A stretch of DNA of 20,933 bases from a virus, in the IMG/VR virus record IMGVR_UViG_3300031974_001731, positions 1 through 20,933 of that record. One strand, written 5' to 3'. The stretch's first letter is position 1. The number at the start of each line of letters is the position of its first letter. A program made the translations under genes and the position numbers. Below the pieces are notes generated by a model, which saw only the letters and a program-made list of their open reading frames with translations, was not told the origin of the DNA and did no database searches. Below, piece by piece: positions 3,969 to 15,127 of the stretch.

Positions 3969-4769
3969 ATGTCGATAAGCGCCAAAGTCACAGAAGTAGC
4001 ACCATTACTAACGAGACTTTCTCTTAGTTCTCACTACTTCCTGAGAATGAACGGGTTTCCTGGACCACTAAGTTCGTTCTTGGGTTCTAAAGGAGTTACA
4101 GCAAATTTTATTAGTGGTGACGCTGGATTGTTGTGCTACGAAGCAACTCTTCCTGGATCATCTTTGGCCACTGCAGATATCTACGGTGACTTCATGGGGG
4201 TCACTCAGAAGTATGCACACAGTAGAATGTATGACCAACTGACGCTTGGTTTCTACTGCGATCTAGAGTACAATGTGCTGAAGTTATTTGAACACTGGAT
4301 TGAGTATATTTCTTCTGGATCCAATCAGTCAAAGGCAAGTCCTGGTTACTTTGTAAGGATGAGGTATCCAGATACTTATAAGTGTAAGTCTGGATTCTCC
4401 ATAACCAAATTTGAAAAAGATAAGAAGATTAAACCATTAGAGTACAACTTCTTCAATGTCTTTCCCACTGGATTAAGTGCAACTCCAGTTTCTTATGATG
4501 GTTCTCAAGTCATGAGAGTGAACGTTACATTATCTTATGATACCTATCAGTGTGGTAAGGCCTCTAGTGCTGCTATTGCCAGAGGAGAAGATGCTAACAA
4601 GAGTCCAGCGCAGTTAAATAATGCCCTTGGTGCTAACTCTGCTCCAGATCAAGCATCGGGAGCAGCTGCTGCAAACGGTAGAGCAACGACTGGATTCGTA
4701 AGACCACTCGGACAAGATATTGGTATTCAACAAAGAGGAACCGTTGTAAGAAGGGTTCCAGAAACCTGA
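3969..4769 (+). CDS. 54: Baseplate tail-tube initiator gp54-like protein
   Basis: The 266-aa protein fits gp54, which joins gp48 on top of the hub and nucleates tube polymerisation (T4 version 320 aa). Features include an N-terminal region with EATLPGSSLATADIYG, a central MYDQLTLGFYCD strand and helix with an adjacent WIEYISSG, and a C-terminal YNFFNVFPTGLSATPVSYDG followed by a VNVTLSYDTY strand. The last block mirrors the PISVSAPELSYDG...FDVTFAY block of T4 gp54 and related tube proteins. The final 60 residues are Ala/Ser/Gly-rich and look disordered. There is no clear Shine-Dalgarno before the ATG. All 12 arginines use AGA/AGG. A related tube-like protein cannot be excluded. Confidence 0.75.
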   Translation: MSISAKVTEVAPLLTRLSLSSHYFLRMNGFPGPLSSFLGSKGVTANFISGDAGLLCYEATLPGSSLATADIYGDFMGVTQKYAHSRMYDQLTLGFYCDLEYNVLKLFEHWIEYISSGSNQSKASPGYFVRMRYPDTYKCKSGFSITKFEKDKKIKPLEYNFFNVFPTGLSATPVSYDGSQVMRVNVTLSYDTYQCGKASSAAIARGEDANKSPAQLNNALGANSAPDQASGAAAANGRATTGFVRPLGQDIGIQQRGTVVRRVPET

Positions 4770-4800: not shown

Positions 4801-5508
4801 ATGCCCTTACCAGTAATTTCGACACCCACCTACGAACTTGAGATTCCTTCTACTGGGAAGACGATCGAGTACAGACCATTCCTTGTTAAAGAAGAGAAGA
4901 TTCTCATTCTCGCTATGGAGAGTGAGGATAGCAAACAGATTGCAAAGGCTGTAAAGCAAGTTCTCTCGAACTGCATTATAACCAAGGATGTTGATGTCTC
5001 TCAACTCGCTACGTTTGACATTGAACTTCTGTTCCTGAACATTCGCGGCAAATCTGTTGGTGAAAAGATTCCCATTGTTGTCACTTGTGATGATGATGGA
5101 GTCACTGAAGTTGACGTAGAAGTCGATGTGGATGATGTCAAAGTAATTACTGACAAAAACCATAAGGACACGATTGATGTTGGTAACGGATACTTTGTTA
5201 AGATGAGGTATCCCAGATTTGATCAATTCATTGAAAGTAACTTTACTGGTGGTAGCGAAGAATCCTTTAGACTGATCGCAAGATGTGTTGATACTATCTA
5301 CAACGATGAAGAATCTTGGGACTCTGCAGACTTCACTGAGAAAGAGATGGTTGAGTTTTTGGAACAGTTTCCAACTTCTCAATTTAAGACCATCGAGCAA
5401 TTCTTCGAGACCATGCCTAGACTTGAGCATGTAATTAACGTTACCAATCCAAAGACTAAGAAGAAGAATAAGGTTGTTCTTGAGGGACTGGCAAGTTTTT
5501 TCAGCTAG
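4801..5508 (+). CDS. 26: Baseplate hub / tail assembly protein gp26
   Basis: The 235-aa product fits the T4 gp26 baseplate-protein family (T4 version 208 aa). It begins PLPVISTPTYELEIPSTGKTIEYRPFLVKEEKILILAMES, the family signature, followed by DVSQLATFDIELLFLNIRGKSVGE and an acidic beta-rich region. The C-terminal half is helical (EEMVEFLEQFP, IEQFFETMPRLEHVINV). An AGGA ribosome site lies about 5 nt before the ATG. The last codons, S-F-F-S-stop, lie on a slippery T TTT TTC heptamer with a downstream hairpin, so part of the product is probably extended in the -1 frame. By position and frameshift it resembles tail-assembly chaperones of the lambda G type. Confidence 0.85.
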   Translation: MPLPVISTPTYELEIPSTGKTIEYRPFLVKEEKILILAMESEDSKQIAKAVKQVLSNCIITKDVDVSQLATFDIELLFLNIRGKSVGEKIPIVVTCDDDGVTEVDVEVDVDDVKVITDKNHKDTIDVGNGYFVKMRYPRFDQFIESNFTGGSEESFRLIARCVDTIYNDEESWDSADFTEKEMVEFLEQFPTSQFKTIEQFFETMPRLEHVINVTNPKTKKKNKVVLEGLASFFS

Positions 5509-5534
5509 CACTCTCGCACGAAACTGTCGAGAGT
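5496..5534 (+). promoter_or_regulatory. Candidate programmed -1 ribosomal frameshift element
   Basis: The slippery heptamer T TTT TTC lies at 5496-5502 in the correct zero-frame phase (codons TTT 5497, TTC 5500). It is followed by a 7-nt spacer (5503-5509), then a hairpin with a 7-bp perfect stem, ACTCTCG (5510-5516) with CGAGAGT (5528-5534), and an 11-nt loop. The zero frame stops at TAG 5506-5508 inside the spacer. The -1 frame is open from 5484 to the TAA at 5691. All three parts (heptamer, spacer length, stimulatory structure) match classical -1 frameshift sites such as those in phage tail-assembly genes. Confidence 0.82.
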
Positions 5535-5693
5535 TACTACAAGACAAATTTTGCCTTGATGCAGCACCATAAATATAGCTTGACAGAGCTAGAAAACATG
5601 ATCCCTTGGGAACGTGAAATATACGTTACTCTTCTGTCACAATATCTTGAAGACGAGAAACTAAAGGATCAACAGCAGAATGGCATCAGGTAA
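5502..5693 (+). CDS. 51: gp51-like C-terminal extension read by -1 frameshift from gp26
   Basis: After slippage the -1 frame gives 63 residues beginning QLALSHETVESYYK, with ALMQHHKYSLTELENMIPWE further on, ending at TAA 5691-5693. The gp26-gp51 fusion would be 297 aa. The HHxYSLxELxxMPxxE pattern is the one seen in frameshift extensions of tail-assembly chaperones, and the segment corresponds to the short gp51 annotated in cyanophages. A separate start is possible at ATG 5559 (44 aa), but it has no Shine-Dalgarno, and the protein-like sequence extends upstream of it past any start codon. The end overlaps the tape-measure-like gene by 14 bases. Far shorter than T4 gp51 (249 aa). Confidence 0.75.
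   Translation, partial: QLALSHETVESYYKTNFALMQHHKYSLTELENMIPWEREIYVTLLSQYLEDEKLKDQQQNGIR
5569..5575 (+). promoter_or_regulatory. Possible late promoter ATAAATA inside the gp51-like frame
   Basis: ATAAATA, preceded by C, encodes part of the H-H-K-Y segment and lies about 105 nt upstream of the tape-measure-like gene. It has the core of the late element but a longer spacing than the others, so it may be a chance match. Confidence 0.3.
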
Positions 5694-7440
5694 GACTGAC
5701 AATTTAATGACCGCCATTCTGGCACACGGTAAAGATCCCACTACGGGAGAGTATCTTACTGCTGCTCAGAGAAAAGCATTATTTAAAAAATCGCAAATCT
5801 CCGGATCTAAAGTATTTGGAGGTGGTGCTGGTGGTGGTGTTAGAGGTGGTGGAGGAAGAGGAACTGCTATTGCTGGTGGAGCACTAGCATTAAGACAATC
5901 ACCTGGAGAAATAACCAACACTGAGATCAGTCAAAAACTTGATCGTATTCTCTTTCTGATCAAGAAAGATGCTGACACAGAGAAAAAATATAGAGAGGCT
6001 CTTCTAGAGAAGCAGCAAAGAGCAAAAGAAAAAATGCTCAGAGGTTCTGCTGAGCGTGGACTAGAGGGAGCGAATAAAGAGAAAGAAAAGAAGGTTGACA
6101 AGGCTAAGTCTGGGATGAAGGCCCAGATTCCATTCCTTGAAAAACTTGGCAAGTTCTTGTTAATCTATCTTGGTGGATGGGTCACTGATAAACTGATTAA
6201 GATGTTCTCTGCCAAAGCGCAGGGGAACATCACCGCATTCCTTGAATATCGAGATGTACTTATCAATCAACTTGGTAAGTTCTTTGCACCAGTTGCTAAC
6301 ATTGCGAATGGATTTATAAAATGGATTGCCAAAACTACCGCTAGAATTACTGGTTGGGCTGGTAGAATTGGTAAGAAAGTCTTCTCCAAACTCTTTGGGA
6401 TGGTGAGGAATATTGCTATTGGAATGCTCAATAAGATTAAGGACATTGTAAAAAACCCACTAAGGTTTGTCAAAGATCAAGCAGCAAACGCTGCCAAAGC
6501 AGTCCGCAATCAAGCTGGAAAAGTTATTACTGGAACAAAAGCTGCCCTTAGTAAGTTAGTTGCATCGAATCCAGTTCTTGCTAAGGCAGTAGGGGGTGCT
6601 AAAGGATTTTTAACTGGTGCTGGAAAGAAGATACTGGGAGCAGCGGGAACATTAAACAAAGCGGGAACGATGCTTGCCAATCCCGCTAAAGCAATGAAGG
6701 TTCTTATTCCTAAGATCTTTGGAGGAATTGCTGGGAAACTTGGAGGTGCCTTACTTAAGTTAGTTAAGGGTAATATCGGTGCTATTGCTATTGGTTCTAT
6801 CATTGATGTTAGATCAAGATTAGCAGCTGGTAGTTCTCCAACTGAGGCAATCACTATTGGACTACTGAAAGGACTGGCATCTGGTGTTGTTGCTGGAACA
6901 GTTGCAGCTGCATTGAGTGGACCTACATTTGGTCTCGGCGCTTTACCTGGACTACTTCTTGGTGGATTCCTTGGCGATGCTGCAGGAAATCTTCTTGTTG
7001 GCCCACTTGAGGATTGGTTCTCTAAACAACCAAAGAAACAGAATGAATTTGATAAATGGTTCTTGGAAACAATGTCCAAGAGCCCTGGCATTATGCAGAG
7101 TGCTTTTGGTCTTGATACTAGATTCTCGAAAGACTATGCAGCGAAGAATGCTAATGGTGGTCAAAGCATAAAAACACCAACCGAAGGTGGTGCTGGAACT
7201 GGTGATAAAACTAGAGTTGCTCCTGGTGGAGCACTGAAGAACAGTTCTGCTTTAGGTCCAGTAGCTACAACTGCTGCTCCTGCTGTAAATGTTGTTGTTC
7301 CTCCTTCTACTGGAAAACCAGCAGCACCGACTCAGATTCCTCAGAAATCACTGGGAACTGATATTCCTATAATTGAATCAACCAATTACGATAATCCGTA
7401 TTTGGCATTCTCTTATTCCATCTATAACGTCCTAGCATAA
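5680..7440 (+). CDS. Tail tape-measure / baseplate hub protein, gp29-like
   Basis: The 586-aa size is almost that of T4 gp29 (590 aa), the tape measure inside the tail tube. A Gly-rich stretch (residues 45-70) leads to a charged coiled-coil (85-150). A hydrophobic FLLIYLGGWVTDKL segment follows near residue 157, then Ala/Lys-rich helices. Residues 390-450 are strongly hydrophobic and Gly/Ala-rich (VVAGTVAAALSG, GLLLGGFLGDAAGNLL), a membrane-active type seen in tape measures. The C-terminus is Pro/Ala-rich. Position directly after gp26/gp51 with its frameshift matches the chaperone-then-tape-measure order of lambda and P2. Sequence similarity to T4 gp29 could not be confirmed by eye. It ends in a TAATG overlap with the next gene. 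Confidence 0.65.
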   Translation: MASGKTDNLMTAILAHGKDPTTGEYLTAAQRKALFKKSQISGSKVFGGGAGGGVRGGGGRGTAIAGGALALRQSPGEITNTEISQKLDRILFLIKKDADTEKKYREALLEKQQRAKEKMLRGSAERGLEGANKEKEKKVDKAKSGMKAQIPFLEKLGKFLLIYLGGWVTDKLIKMFSAKAQGNITAFLEYRDVLINQLGKFFAPVANIANGFIKWIAKTTARITGWAGRIGKKVFSKLFGMVRNIAIGMLNKIKDIVKNPLRFVKDQAANAAKAVRNQAGKVITGTKAALSKLVASNPVLAKAVGGAKGFLTGAGKKILGAAGTLNKAGTMLANPAKAMKVLIPKIFGGIAGKLGGALLKLVKGNIGAIAIGSIIDVRSRLAAGSSPTEAITIGLLKGLASGVVAGTVAAALSGPTFGLGALPGLLLGGFLGDAAGNLLVGPLEDWFSKQPKKQNEFDKWFLETMSKSPGIMQSAFGLDTRFSKDYAAKNANGGQSIKTPTEGGAGTGDKTRVAPGGALKNSSALGPVATTAAPAVNVVVPPSTGKPAAPTQIPQKSLGTDIPIIESTNYDNPYLAFSYSIYNVLA

Positions 7441-9143
7441 TGGCAGCAATCGTACCATATCGCCCTATTACTAAAACAGGTGGCGGTGGTGCTTTAGTCA
7501 CCGCGAAAAAGGGTGGTGCTCAGGTTTCAAAGACTCTTATTAATATTGAGAAGGTTCTCCAGAACAAGATAAAAGATAAGAGAAAATTCTATGAAAAGCA
7601 GACTAGGATTACTAGACTTGAGAGTGAAACAAAAACGAGAACAGCATCTGAAGCAACATTAGAAAAGGCATCTAAGTTTAGAATGAACCTGTTAGACAAG
7701 GTTCCAAACTTTGCTGTCGATGCGTTTGCCAAGATCATGAACTTCCTTGGCATTTATCTTATTGGGTGGATTACTGATAAGTTACCCAAGATTATAAATG
7801 CAATTAAAGATGTCAACCAAAGAATTCAAAAAATGGGTGACATTGCAAGAAGTCTTGTAACAAGAGGTATTAATATTATTACGGCAATGGGTGGATTGAT
7901 TGCCGCCAAGACAAAACAAATTCTTACTCTTGATTTTGGTGATAAGAGTGGAGATGTAAAGAAAGCCCAAGATACGCTCGATAAAGCATTTGATGATTTG
8001 GAGAGTGATTGGGATGATGGTGTTAAACTTCTAACTGCTCCTCTTGGATCTTTCCCCGTATCTGACGGTAACGATAGTGATCCTACAGGACCTACTGGAC
8101 CTACAACTCCTGTCACTGGAACTGATGCAGAGAAGTATAAAAAGTTTTATGAGATGGCAAAGAAAGCAGGTGCAAAATATCCTGAGTTAGTTGCTGCACA
8201 ATTTGCATTAGAATCTGGATATGGTTCAGCAGTATCTGGTGCTAATAATTATTTTGGATTAAAGGCAACCACATCTGAGTCAGGTGCTTCAATGGGTACT
8301 ACAGAATATTATGATGGTGTGAAGACTCAAACAAGTGCTAAGTTCATGAACTTTGCTAGCGCACAAGATGCAGTCAATACTCTTGTTAATAGATGGTATA
8401 AAGATTATAAGGGATACAAAGGAGTAAATAATCAGAGTAGTGCAGGAGCAGCGGCTGAGCAGTTACAGAGAGAAAGCTATGCTACTGATCCTCGTTATGC
8501 TCAGAAATTGAAAGATATTATGGCAGCCAACAAAGATATTGTTGGTGCTGGTGATGGTTCTGCTAGAAGACAAAAAAATCAAACTCCTGCATATCAACAG
8601 GCAGTAAAAGTAGGTCGTTCATTAGAATCTCAAGGTTATAGAGCATGGCAACACCCTGACTTCAGTGTATACAAAGGATATACTGGATCTGGTATGGAAA
8701 GAGTGATGAGGAGAAGTTACAACTCCTATCACAACTATGGTGAAGCATTGGACTTCCCACTGTCACACAACACTGAAGCACAGTTGAACAAACTTGCTAA
8801 GTATTTCAGTGACAATCGTTCTAAACTGGGTGTTGCTGAACTGAAGTGGAAAGATGATGCTAACCACTTCGATCACCTGCACGTCTCGTTTAAGGGTGGT
8901 GGAAGCGGAATGCTAATGGCCACTGGACCTGATCCCGCAACTGGTCTTGCCCCTGCTGCTCCTAGATCTAATTTTGATATGGCAAAGTTCCGCAGATACC
9001 TGAAAGAAGAGATGGCAAAGGCGGGACAACCAGTTGCTCAACCAAAACAGCAATCTCAACAAAGTTCTGGATCATCTGCTCCGCACATGAATCCAACATC
9101 GAACTTAAATAGTATGTTATTCACTGCATTATCCTTCGTATGA
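7440..9143 (+). CDS. Tape-measure-like protein with glucosaminidase and M15 peptidase domains (tail lysin)
   Basis: The 567-aa protein has three parts. Residues 30-130: a basic coiled-coil and a FLGIYLIGWITDKL segment (near residue 101) shared with the preceding protein. Residues about 230-375: a FlgJ/LytG-like glucosaminidase domain, with catalytic Glu258 in the ALESGYGSA motif and NNYFGLKA following, preceded by a PTGPTGPTTP linker. Residues about 385-485: an M15-like peptidase, with SYHNYGEALD supplying zinc ligands His431 and Asp438, and FDHLHV supplying His479/His481. The C-terminus is Gln/Ser-rich. It should cut both glycan and peptide bonds of host peptidoglycan during tail penetration, a role held in T4 by the gp5 lysozyme domain. 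It overlaps gp27 by ATGA. Confidence 0.85.
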   Translation: MAAIVPYRPITKTGGGGALVTAKKGGAQVSKTLINIEKVLQNKIKDKRKFYEKQTRITRLESETKTRTASEATLEKASKFRMNLLDKVPNFAVDAFAKIMNFLGIYLIGWITDKLPKIINAIKDVNQRIQKMGDIARSLVTRGINIITAMGGLIAAKTKQILTLDFGDKSGDVKKAQDTLDKAFDDLESDWDDGVKLLTAPLGSFPVSDGNDSDPTGPTGPTTPVTGTDAEKYKKFYEMAKKAGAKYPELVAAQFALESGYGSAVSGANNYFGLKATTSESGASMGTTEYYDGVKTQTSAKFMNFASAQDAVNTLVNRWYKDYKGYKGVNNQSSAGAAAEQLQRESYATDPRYAQKLKDIMAANKDIVGAGDGSARRQKNQTPAYQQAVKVGRSLESQGYRAWQHPDFSVYKGYTGSGMERVMRRSYNSYHNYGEALDFPLSHNTEAQLNKLAKYFSDNRSKLGVAELKWKDDANHFDHLHVSFKGGGSGMLMATGPDPATGLAPAAPRSNFDMAKFRRYLKEEMAKAGQPVAQPKQQSQQSSGSSAPHMNPTSNLNSMLFTALSFV

Positions 9144-14011: not shown

Positions 14012-14206
14012 ATGCCTGAGCAACTCCTTGAATCCGTCGCCATCGACGTTTGCACCCGCTCTATTCTGCTGACTGCTGATGACGGTAGCGAGAAGATGGT
14101 TGAATGTGACACTGTTGACGAGTTCATGAACGTTCTTGATTTCATTCGCGCTATTGTTCCCGATGACCGTATTGTTTATGCCGAGGTGGCAACTACCCTG
14201 CGATGA
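14012..14206 (+). CDS. 64-aa hypothetical protein
   Basis: No function is recognised. The protein is acidic, with strand-like segments (SVAIDVCTRSILLTADDGSEKMVEC) followed by a helix (VDEFMNVLDFIRAIV) and a DDRIVYAEV strand, giving a small alpha/beta fold. I believe similar short proteins are common in marine T4-like phages, but this was not checked. It is first in the islet behind the sigma70 promoter, with a leader of about 20 nt. Its stop overlaps the next ATG (ATGA). Arginines use CGN only (4 of 4), as in gp32 and cp12. Confidence 0.75.
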   Translation: MPEQLLESVAIDVCTRSILLTADDGSEKMVECDTVDEFMNVLDFIRAIVPDDRIVYAEVATTLR

Positions 14207-14388
14207 TTACAATTAGTATCCAAGAGTTTGAAGAAAAGTTTGAAGAGTATGTAGACAGGGCTGGTGAGGGAGAATCTTTCCTCATCCAGAATCCTGGGGG
14301 TAACTTAATCTTAGTACCACATGATGATTACTGTGATGCAGAGTTAAAGAACCTTTATTGTACAGGCACTAATTGTGCTGATGGATAA
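14203..14388 (+). CDS. Phd/YefM-like antitoxin-fold protein (orphan)
   Basis: The 61-aa product resembles the N-terminal domain of Phd/YefM antitoxins: MITISIQEFEEKFEEYVDRAGEGESFLIQ is followed by a strand, NLILVPHDDY, matching the family pattern (sVsefr..l..ll..v..gE...I...g....vlvp..dy). Antitoxins of this type repress their own promoter and neutralise a partner toxin. No toxin gene is adjacent, and the usual toxin-binding tail is short, with Cys residues near the end (LYCTGTNCADG). It overlaps the 64-aa gene by ATGA, and its TAA is followed immediately by tRNA-Leu. A DNA-binding regulatory role, or neutralisation of a host toxin, is inference. Confidence 0.6.
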   Translation: MITISIQEFEEKFEEYVDRAGEGESFLIQNPGGNLILVPHDDYCDAELKNLYCTGTNCADG

Positions 14389-14485: not shown

Positions 14486-15127
14486 ATGTGGAGTGATTAT
14501 TCCGAATATCTTTTAGACACACTTAATTTAGATGTCGTCGATGTAGGACATACCATAGGAAAAAATGATGCAGTCTTAGGATCTGGACTGTATTCTGGAA
14601 ATCACATCTTAAAATCTAGAGCAACTGTCATTAATTCTGGCCCAACAGAGATATACAATAATATTGTGTATCCAAAGACAGGTCAGAATTTGCCATGCTT
14701 GGGTATGGATCTGATGTGTTTCTTTCCTATGAAAGTTATCATCGTATTTGATTTTCAGCACCCAACACCTCACTTTGATTGGTATAATCCTTTTATGACA
14801 TGTCACCTAGGTGAGATGTTAGATAACAGTCCAAAAGACATTAGATTCTTTGAGCCTGGAAATCATTTCTCAAGGTATATCTACGTCCGTAAGTGTACCG
14901 TTGATGAGATACCCGATCATTTGATATACTTCAAGAAGTATGTTGATGTCTACAAGAAACTGTTAGATGCGACAAAGCCAACTGGAGAAGATGAGTCTGT
15001 TTATACAGATTTTGATAACTATATGCTGAGTTTAGATCCAGTTGCGGGATACCTTGGTAGTAAATTTGGGAAAGAGTTCTCTGACAAATATGTAAGGGAG
15101 TTTTTATTCTCTTATGCATCCGTCTAA
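14486..15127 (+). CDS. pebS: Ferredoxin-dependent bilin reductase, PebS-type
   Basis: The 213-aa protein belongs to the ferredoxin-dependent bilin reductases. Its core, YNNIVYPKTGQNLPC then GMDLM then KVIIVFDFQHP, closely matches cyanophage PebS, which reduces biliverdin to phycoerythrobilin in one enzyme. FFEPGNHFSRYIYVRK and VYTDFDNYMLSLDPVAGY follow in the same order. The two catalytic aspartates of PebS correspond to Asp75 (GMDLM) and Asp184 (LDPVAGY), both present. It is slightly shorter than P-SSM2 PebS (233 aa). AGGAG at 14475-14479 fixes the start. The gene is the last of the sigma70 islet, right after tRNA-Leu. PcyX, a related phage enzyme, is the main alternative assignment. Confidence 0.88.
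   Translation: MWSDYSEYLLDTLNLDVVDVGHTIGKNDAVLGSGLYSGNHILKSRATVINSGPTEIYNNIVYPKTGQNLPCLGMDLMCFFPMKVIIVFDFQHPTPHFDWYNPFMTCHLGEMLDNSPKDIRFFEPGNHFSRYIYVRKCTVDEIPDHLIYFKKYVDVYKKLLDATKPTGEDESVYTDFDNYMLSLDPVAGYLGSKFGKEFSDKYVREFLFSYASV

Follow-up and report, generated by a model that had tools for sequence, protein, structure and literature searches.

A conserved predicted −1 frameshift signal joins gp26 to a gp51-like tail in T4-like phages

The gp26–gp51 junction

The window analysed here (IMG/VR record IMGVR_UViG_3300031974_001731, positions 1–20,933; 20,933 nt) is a partial T4-like cyanophage contig carrying tail genes. Its gp26 ORF (4801–5508; 235 aa) ends in GCA AGT TTT TTC AGC TAG and is followed by a gp51-like reading frame in the −1 phase. 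The pair is placed between a tail tube gene (phrog_45) and a 586-aa gene that is weakly tape-measure-like in relatives:

3969–4769, + strand: upstream tail tube gene (phrog_45 tail tube, E 4.2e-39)
4801–5508, + strand: gp26, putative short tail-assembly chaperone (TAC-N), 235 aa (PF12322, E 5.9e-72; phrog_150, E 6.2e-78)
4801–5693, + strand: predicted frameshift product gp26–gp51 (TAC-NC), 297 aa, colinear with T4 gp51
5496–5502, + strand: slippery heptamer T TTT TTC, zero-frame codons AGT TTT TTC, identified from the sequence and from relatives
5502–5693, + strand: C-terminal gp51-like tail (TAC-C), encoded in the −1 frame by 63 codons plus a stop (phrog_634, E 5.8e-29)
5503–5509, + strand: 7-nt spacer holding the zero-frame stop TAG (5506–5508)
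5510–5534, + strand: probable stimulatory stem-loop with a 7-bp stem, ACTCTCG/CGAGAGT (5510–5516 with 5528–5534), and an 11-nt loop (5517–5527)
5680–7440, + strand: downstream gene, 586 aa, probable tape-measure or hub protein, from its position and weak tape-measure PHROG matches in relatives

A first-pass annotation of this DNA had proposed a −1 frameshift signal here, and the heptamer, spacer, stem, loop, stop and 63-codon extension all proved correctly placed when the sequence was re-checked. After a TGA at 5481, no stop interrupts the −1 frame between 5484 and 5690; it ends at 5691–5693, 63 codons beyond the slip. The 38-nt junction folds at −10.8 kcal/mol (z −2.7). The earliest start-type codons of this frame in the window are TTG 5556 and ATG 5559, neither of which is preceded by a Shine-Dalgarno sequence; ATG 5559 lies 19 codons inside the conserved gp51 tail. 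The predicted fusion matches phrog_150 over residues 1–281 and phrog_634 over residues 195–294. The string TTTTTTC is not rare by itself, with four occurrences in the window versus 6.1 expected, and the window genes contain 16 in-phase slippery heptamers; of these, only the one at 5496–5502 is both close to the end of its gene and followed by a long −1 frame. A chance origin of this heptamer is ruled out because it is conserved in relatives.

The downstream gene had been called tape-measure-like. Its position and the weak PHROG matches in relatives agree with that description, but profile comparison detected no homology between the 586-aa protein and T4 gp29. For gp26 itself, a sequence search against the PDB gave no genuine match; the likeliest PDB match of its AlphaFold model (pLDDT 82.6) is the HK97 tail-assembly chaperone gp13 (2ob9), at a non-significant E of 1.2 (prob 0.75, TM 0.43 on target).

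Conservation of the heptamer and the −1 phase

Two scans of IMG/VR together with named phages yielded 132 distinct junctions; the gp51 tail matched 547 phage records and gp26 matched 673. In named phage records such as those of ACG-2014e, S-PRM1 and S-H9-1 the gp51 tail was matched where no gp51 gene is listed and only gp26 is annotated. Loss of the heptamer or of the −1 phase in close relatives, named in the first-pass annotation as contrary evidence, is not seen generally: gp51 lies in the −1 frame at 131 of the 132 distinct junctions, the remaining one being fused in frame, and the exact TTTTTTC occupies the same place in 127 of the 131 −1 junctions, although these loci share descent and the counts are not independent events.

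Codon choice at the site is also constrained. Among 68 dereplicated loci, the codon before the heptamer at the canonical site is TCT, AGT, GCT, AAT, GGT or GAT, such that the encoded amino acid varies (Ser, Ala, Asn, Gly, Asp) and the third base is always T. The Phe pair is TTT-TTC in 65/65 loci with the canonical site, and Phe codons elsewhere in the same genes are 69% TTT and 31% TTC. The C at heptamer position 7 is invariant in the aligned Kyanoviridae loci, and excess synonymous identity reaches its maximum over the 9 codons centred on codon 235.

The layout recurs in very distant groups, among them Emmerichvirinae, Schizotequatrovirus, Menderavirus, Pootjesviridae, Emdodecavirus and SAR11 phages. 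T_TTT_TTC is found in Aeromonas phages 65 and ZPAH1, in KVP40-type Vibrio phages (phi-Grn1, K575) and in Stenotrophomonas phages Mendera and DLP6; T_TTT_TTT in HTVC008M, Melnitz, C48C1, phiM19 and VmeM-32; and T_TTT_TTG in Rhizobium phages P10VF and Y68.

The departures at L084–L086 and L126 were considered as an argument against conservation and rejected as such. Loci L084–L086 keep T TTT TTT within about one codon of the usual place. Locus L126 is missing the last ~30 codons of gp26 together with the heptamer, a stop then preceding the −1 gp51 tail; this is a probable deletion or assembly error. Two other loci also differ. Vibrio phage K369 (L087) carries a homologous −1 tail after gp26 (after 3223) with A CTT TTC in place of a canonical heptamer and an overlapping TAATG, and may rely on reinitiation or a one-tRNA slip. 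In the in-frame exception (L004; IMGVR_UViG_3300049043_000112), gp26 and gp51 are joined through TCT TTT TGG TTA GGA ATG, equivalent to a deletion of about 2 nt relative to the usual junction, and the heptamer is lost. This is either a natural fusion or an assembly error; its 236-kb contig contains no second PF12322 copy.

The downstream stem-loop

In the majority of relatives the heptamer is followed by a 10-bp stem, GTATGGCTCA/TGAGTCATAC, which begins 6 nt past the heptamer and is shifted by 2 nt in register versus the window stem. RNAalifold returned no pairs for the whole 63-sequence alignment, probably because a minority clade has a weak stem or one in another register, and the stem was instead assessed by explicit pair counts and synonymous shuffles. 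By this count 84.8% of cells are paired versus 26–39% in slid controls, and 25 cells are changed on both sides versus 6.7 in shuffles. The clearest covariation is a single pair that passes from UA to GC to AU, in which a gp51 Ala codon changes synonymously together with a Glu/Ala/Val replacement. Compared with 200 shuffles that preserve the amino acids, the stem scores a mean z of −3.1 over 125 loci, 80% of which fall below −2; for a downstream control stretch the mean z is −0.3. The window stem, taken in its own register, has a z of −2.9 (1/200 shuffles). The stem is weak or different in about 20% of loci, and the heptamer is thus the more conserved element. The first-pass annotation had suggested looking for a conserved T-rich heptamer, a hairpin and synonymous constraint at gp26–gp51 junctions; all three are seen, the hairpin less uniformly than the heptamer.

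T4 gp26 and gp51 as short and long forms

T4 genes 26 and 51 are separate and divergent. The first-pass annotation treated their products as separate proteins, which is correct as to the genes; T4 gp51, however, carries a gp26-like domain of its own. Whereas T4 gp26 (208 aa) consists of PF12322 alone, T4 gp51 (249 aa) combines a PF12322 domain with a tail homologous to that of the cyanophage protein. The small cyanophage ‘gp51’ therefore corresponds to the C-terminal part of a long form, and T4 genes 26 and 51 encode paralogous short and long forms.

The copy number of PF12322 in 20 named genomes follows the same division. The domain is single in the 17 genomes with the split layout, 16 of which have T_TTT_TTN, and double in T4, Acj9 and IME13, where the short and long forms lie on separate genes. 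No second gp26-like gene was found in the complete genomes with the split layout among these 20; the window contig is partial. This pattern indicates that the one-gene and two-gene layouts are alternative routes to a short and a long form.

A predicted frameshifted chaperone pair and its alternatives

From the junction sequences and their comparison, we consider it very probable that gp26 and gp26–gp51 are the short and long tail-assembly chaperones produced by a −1 frameshift. As predicted, gp26 would be the short form (TAC-N). A minority of ribosomes would slip one base back on T_TTT_TTC, aided by the stem-loop 7 nt downstream; reading past the 5506 stop, they would extend gp26 by the 63 residues of the gp51 tail and so give the long form (TAC-NC). 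By analogy with lambda gpG/gpGT, the two forms may associate with the tape-measure protein in a fixed ratio and bring in subunits of the tail tube. We infer the occurrence of the frameshift, its efficiency and the chaperone function from these comparisons. Weighing against this reading are the ATG that many relatives keep near the gp26 stop, the weak stem in about a fifth of loci, the empty RNAalifold result, the absence of homology between the downstream gene and T4 gp29, and the in-frame fusion L004 with its lost heptamer.

The main competing account would have gp51 made as a separate small protein by termination-reinitiation at an ATG beside the gp26 stop, with the T-run merely encoding two conserved Phe residues. 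Databases do list gp51 as its own gene starting near the gp26 stop, and 109 of the 127 junctions have an ATG in the gp51 frame a few bases past it. The first-pass annotation had held that an efficient separate start for gp51 would count against frameshifting, and this ATG is in fact common; yet it is missing from the usual place in 18/127 junctions, 11 of which have CTC, CTA or ATT, the window (CTC) being among the 18. The window's own first ATG, deep in the conserved tail and without a Shine-Dalgarno sequence, offers no substitute. Reinitiation also leaves the fixed TTT-TTC codons and the T before them unexplained, as it does the gp26-like domain of T4 gp51. We regard it as very unlikely. The 18 junctions lacking the ATG imply that reinitiation cannot be the general mechanism, although a free tail may be added in some phages; judged by these sequences, the usual gp51 ATG is dispensable.

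A combined scheme, in which frameshifting gives the long form and reinitiation gives a free tail wherever the ATG exists, would suit an ATG that is frequent without being universal and that the stem covers in relatives. The ATG may, however, be retained because it takes part in the stem (GTATG with CATAC), or because Met/Leu is ordinary at that residue, and we think such a combination rather unlikely. We can speculate further, at quite low confidence, that the stem-loop is dual, both stimulating the slip and covering the tail ATG; most lineages would then make short form, long form and free tail in a tuned ratio, and the window lineage would have lost the ATG and come to depend on frameshifting alone. 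Bacterial RNA polymerase slippage usually requires longer runs than the one found here. A homopolymer run does lie at the junction, but it consists of only six T followed by the invariant C, and the conserved stem at frameshift spacing suits a ribosome, making transcriptional slippage on T6 an extremely improbable source of the fusion. Ribosomal −1 frameshifting, the preferred reading, is strongly supported by the comparative evidence.

Relation to known systems

The lambda gpG/gpGT and P2 E/E′ pairs resemble the arrangement predicted here in that the ribosome slips by −1 late in the first gene and extends the product in the −1 frame; they lie between tail tube and tape measure, as this pair would if the next gene is a tape measure. 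The searches run here gave no family match to the lambda or P2 chaperones. The lambda heptamer is a different one, and the efficiency of its slip has been measured. The 2022 study by Vladimirov et al. reportedly describes frameshifting as conserved in several T4-like groups, with T4 using genes 26 and 51. The present finding is thus already known in kind and, by that account, in gene family.

The first-pass annotation knew of no description of such a frameshift in T4-like phages, and its claim of novelty does not stand: Vladimirov, Gautam and Davidson (Virology 2022, PMID 34826709) and papers citing them came before. Their paper identifies gp26/gp51 as T4-like tail-assembly-chaperone genes. 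PMC10885494 cites it for T4-like phages in which the long fusion has a gene of its own beside the short one, and PMC12846349 for T4-like TAC-N genes with poly-T frameshift signals. Going by these citing papers, the published system resembles the present one in phage group, in its short TAC-N and long TAC-NC, in its poly-T signals and in its separate-gene versions. The tail-assembly chaperones of Vandenendeviridae and Andersonviridae (PMC12846349) likewise have a −1 frameshift near the TAC-N end, but belong to other phage families and use another motif, GTTTTT. With the T4 baseplate hub assembly proteins gp26 and gp51 this locus shares PF12322 and the homologous gp51 tail, whereas T4's two-gene encoding was absent from the complete genomes with the split layout. 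Our analysis adds quantified conservation, the covarying hairpin and the dispensability of the usual gp51 ATG; we found no prior description of the hairpin or of the start-codon loss in the papers searched, though Vladimirov et al. 2022 may contain them.

For annotation, the small ‘gp51’ that hundreds of marine phage genomes either list or overlook would be the C-terminal part of a predicted frameshift product. The comparison also supports a tail-assembly-chaperone role for proteins long named baseplate hub subunit and hub assembly catalyst.

Other genes in the window

The probable tape-measure gene is followed by a 567-aa tail or hub protein (7440–9143) with a FlgJ-type glucosaminidase domain (235–365). 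Further downstream, a 61-aa Phd/YefM-like antitoxin candidate (14203–14388; E 8e-6, just under the Pfam cut-off) sits among structural genes, where an obvious toxin partner is absent. An auxiliary metabolic gene for a ferredoxin-dependent bilin reductase (14486–15127) lies between tail genes and supports a cyanophage origin of the window.
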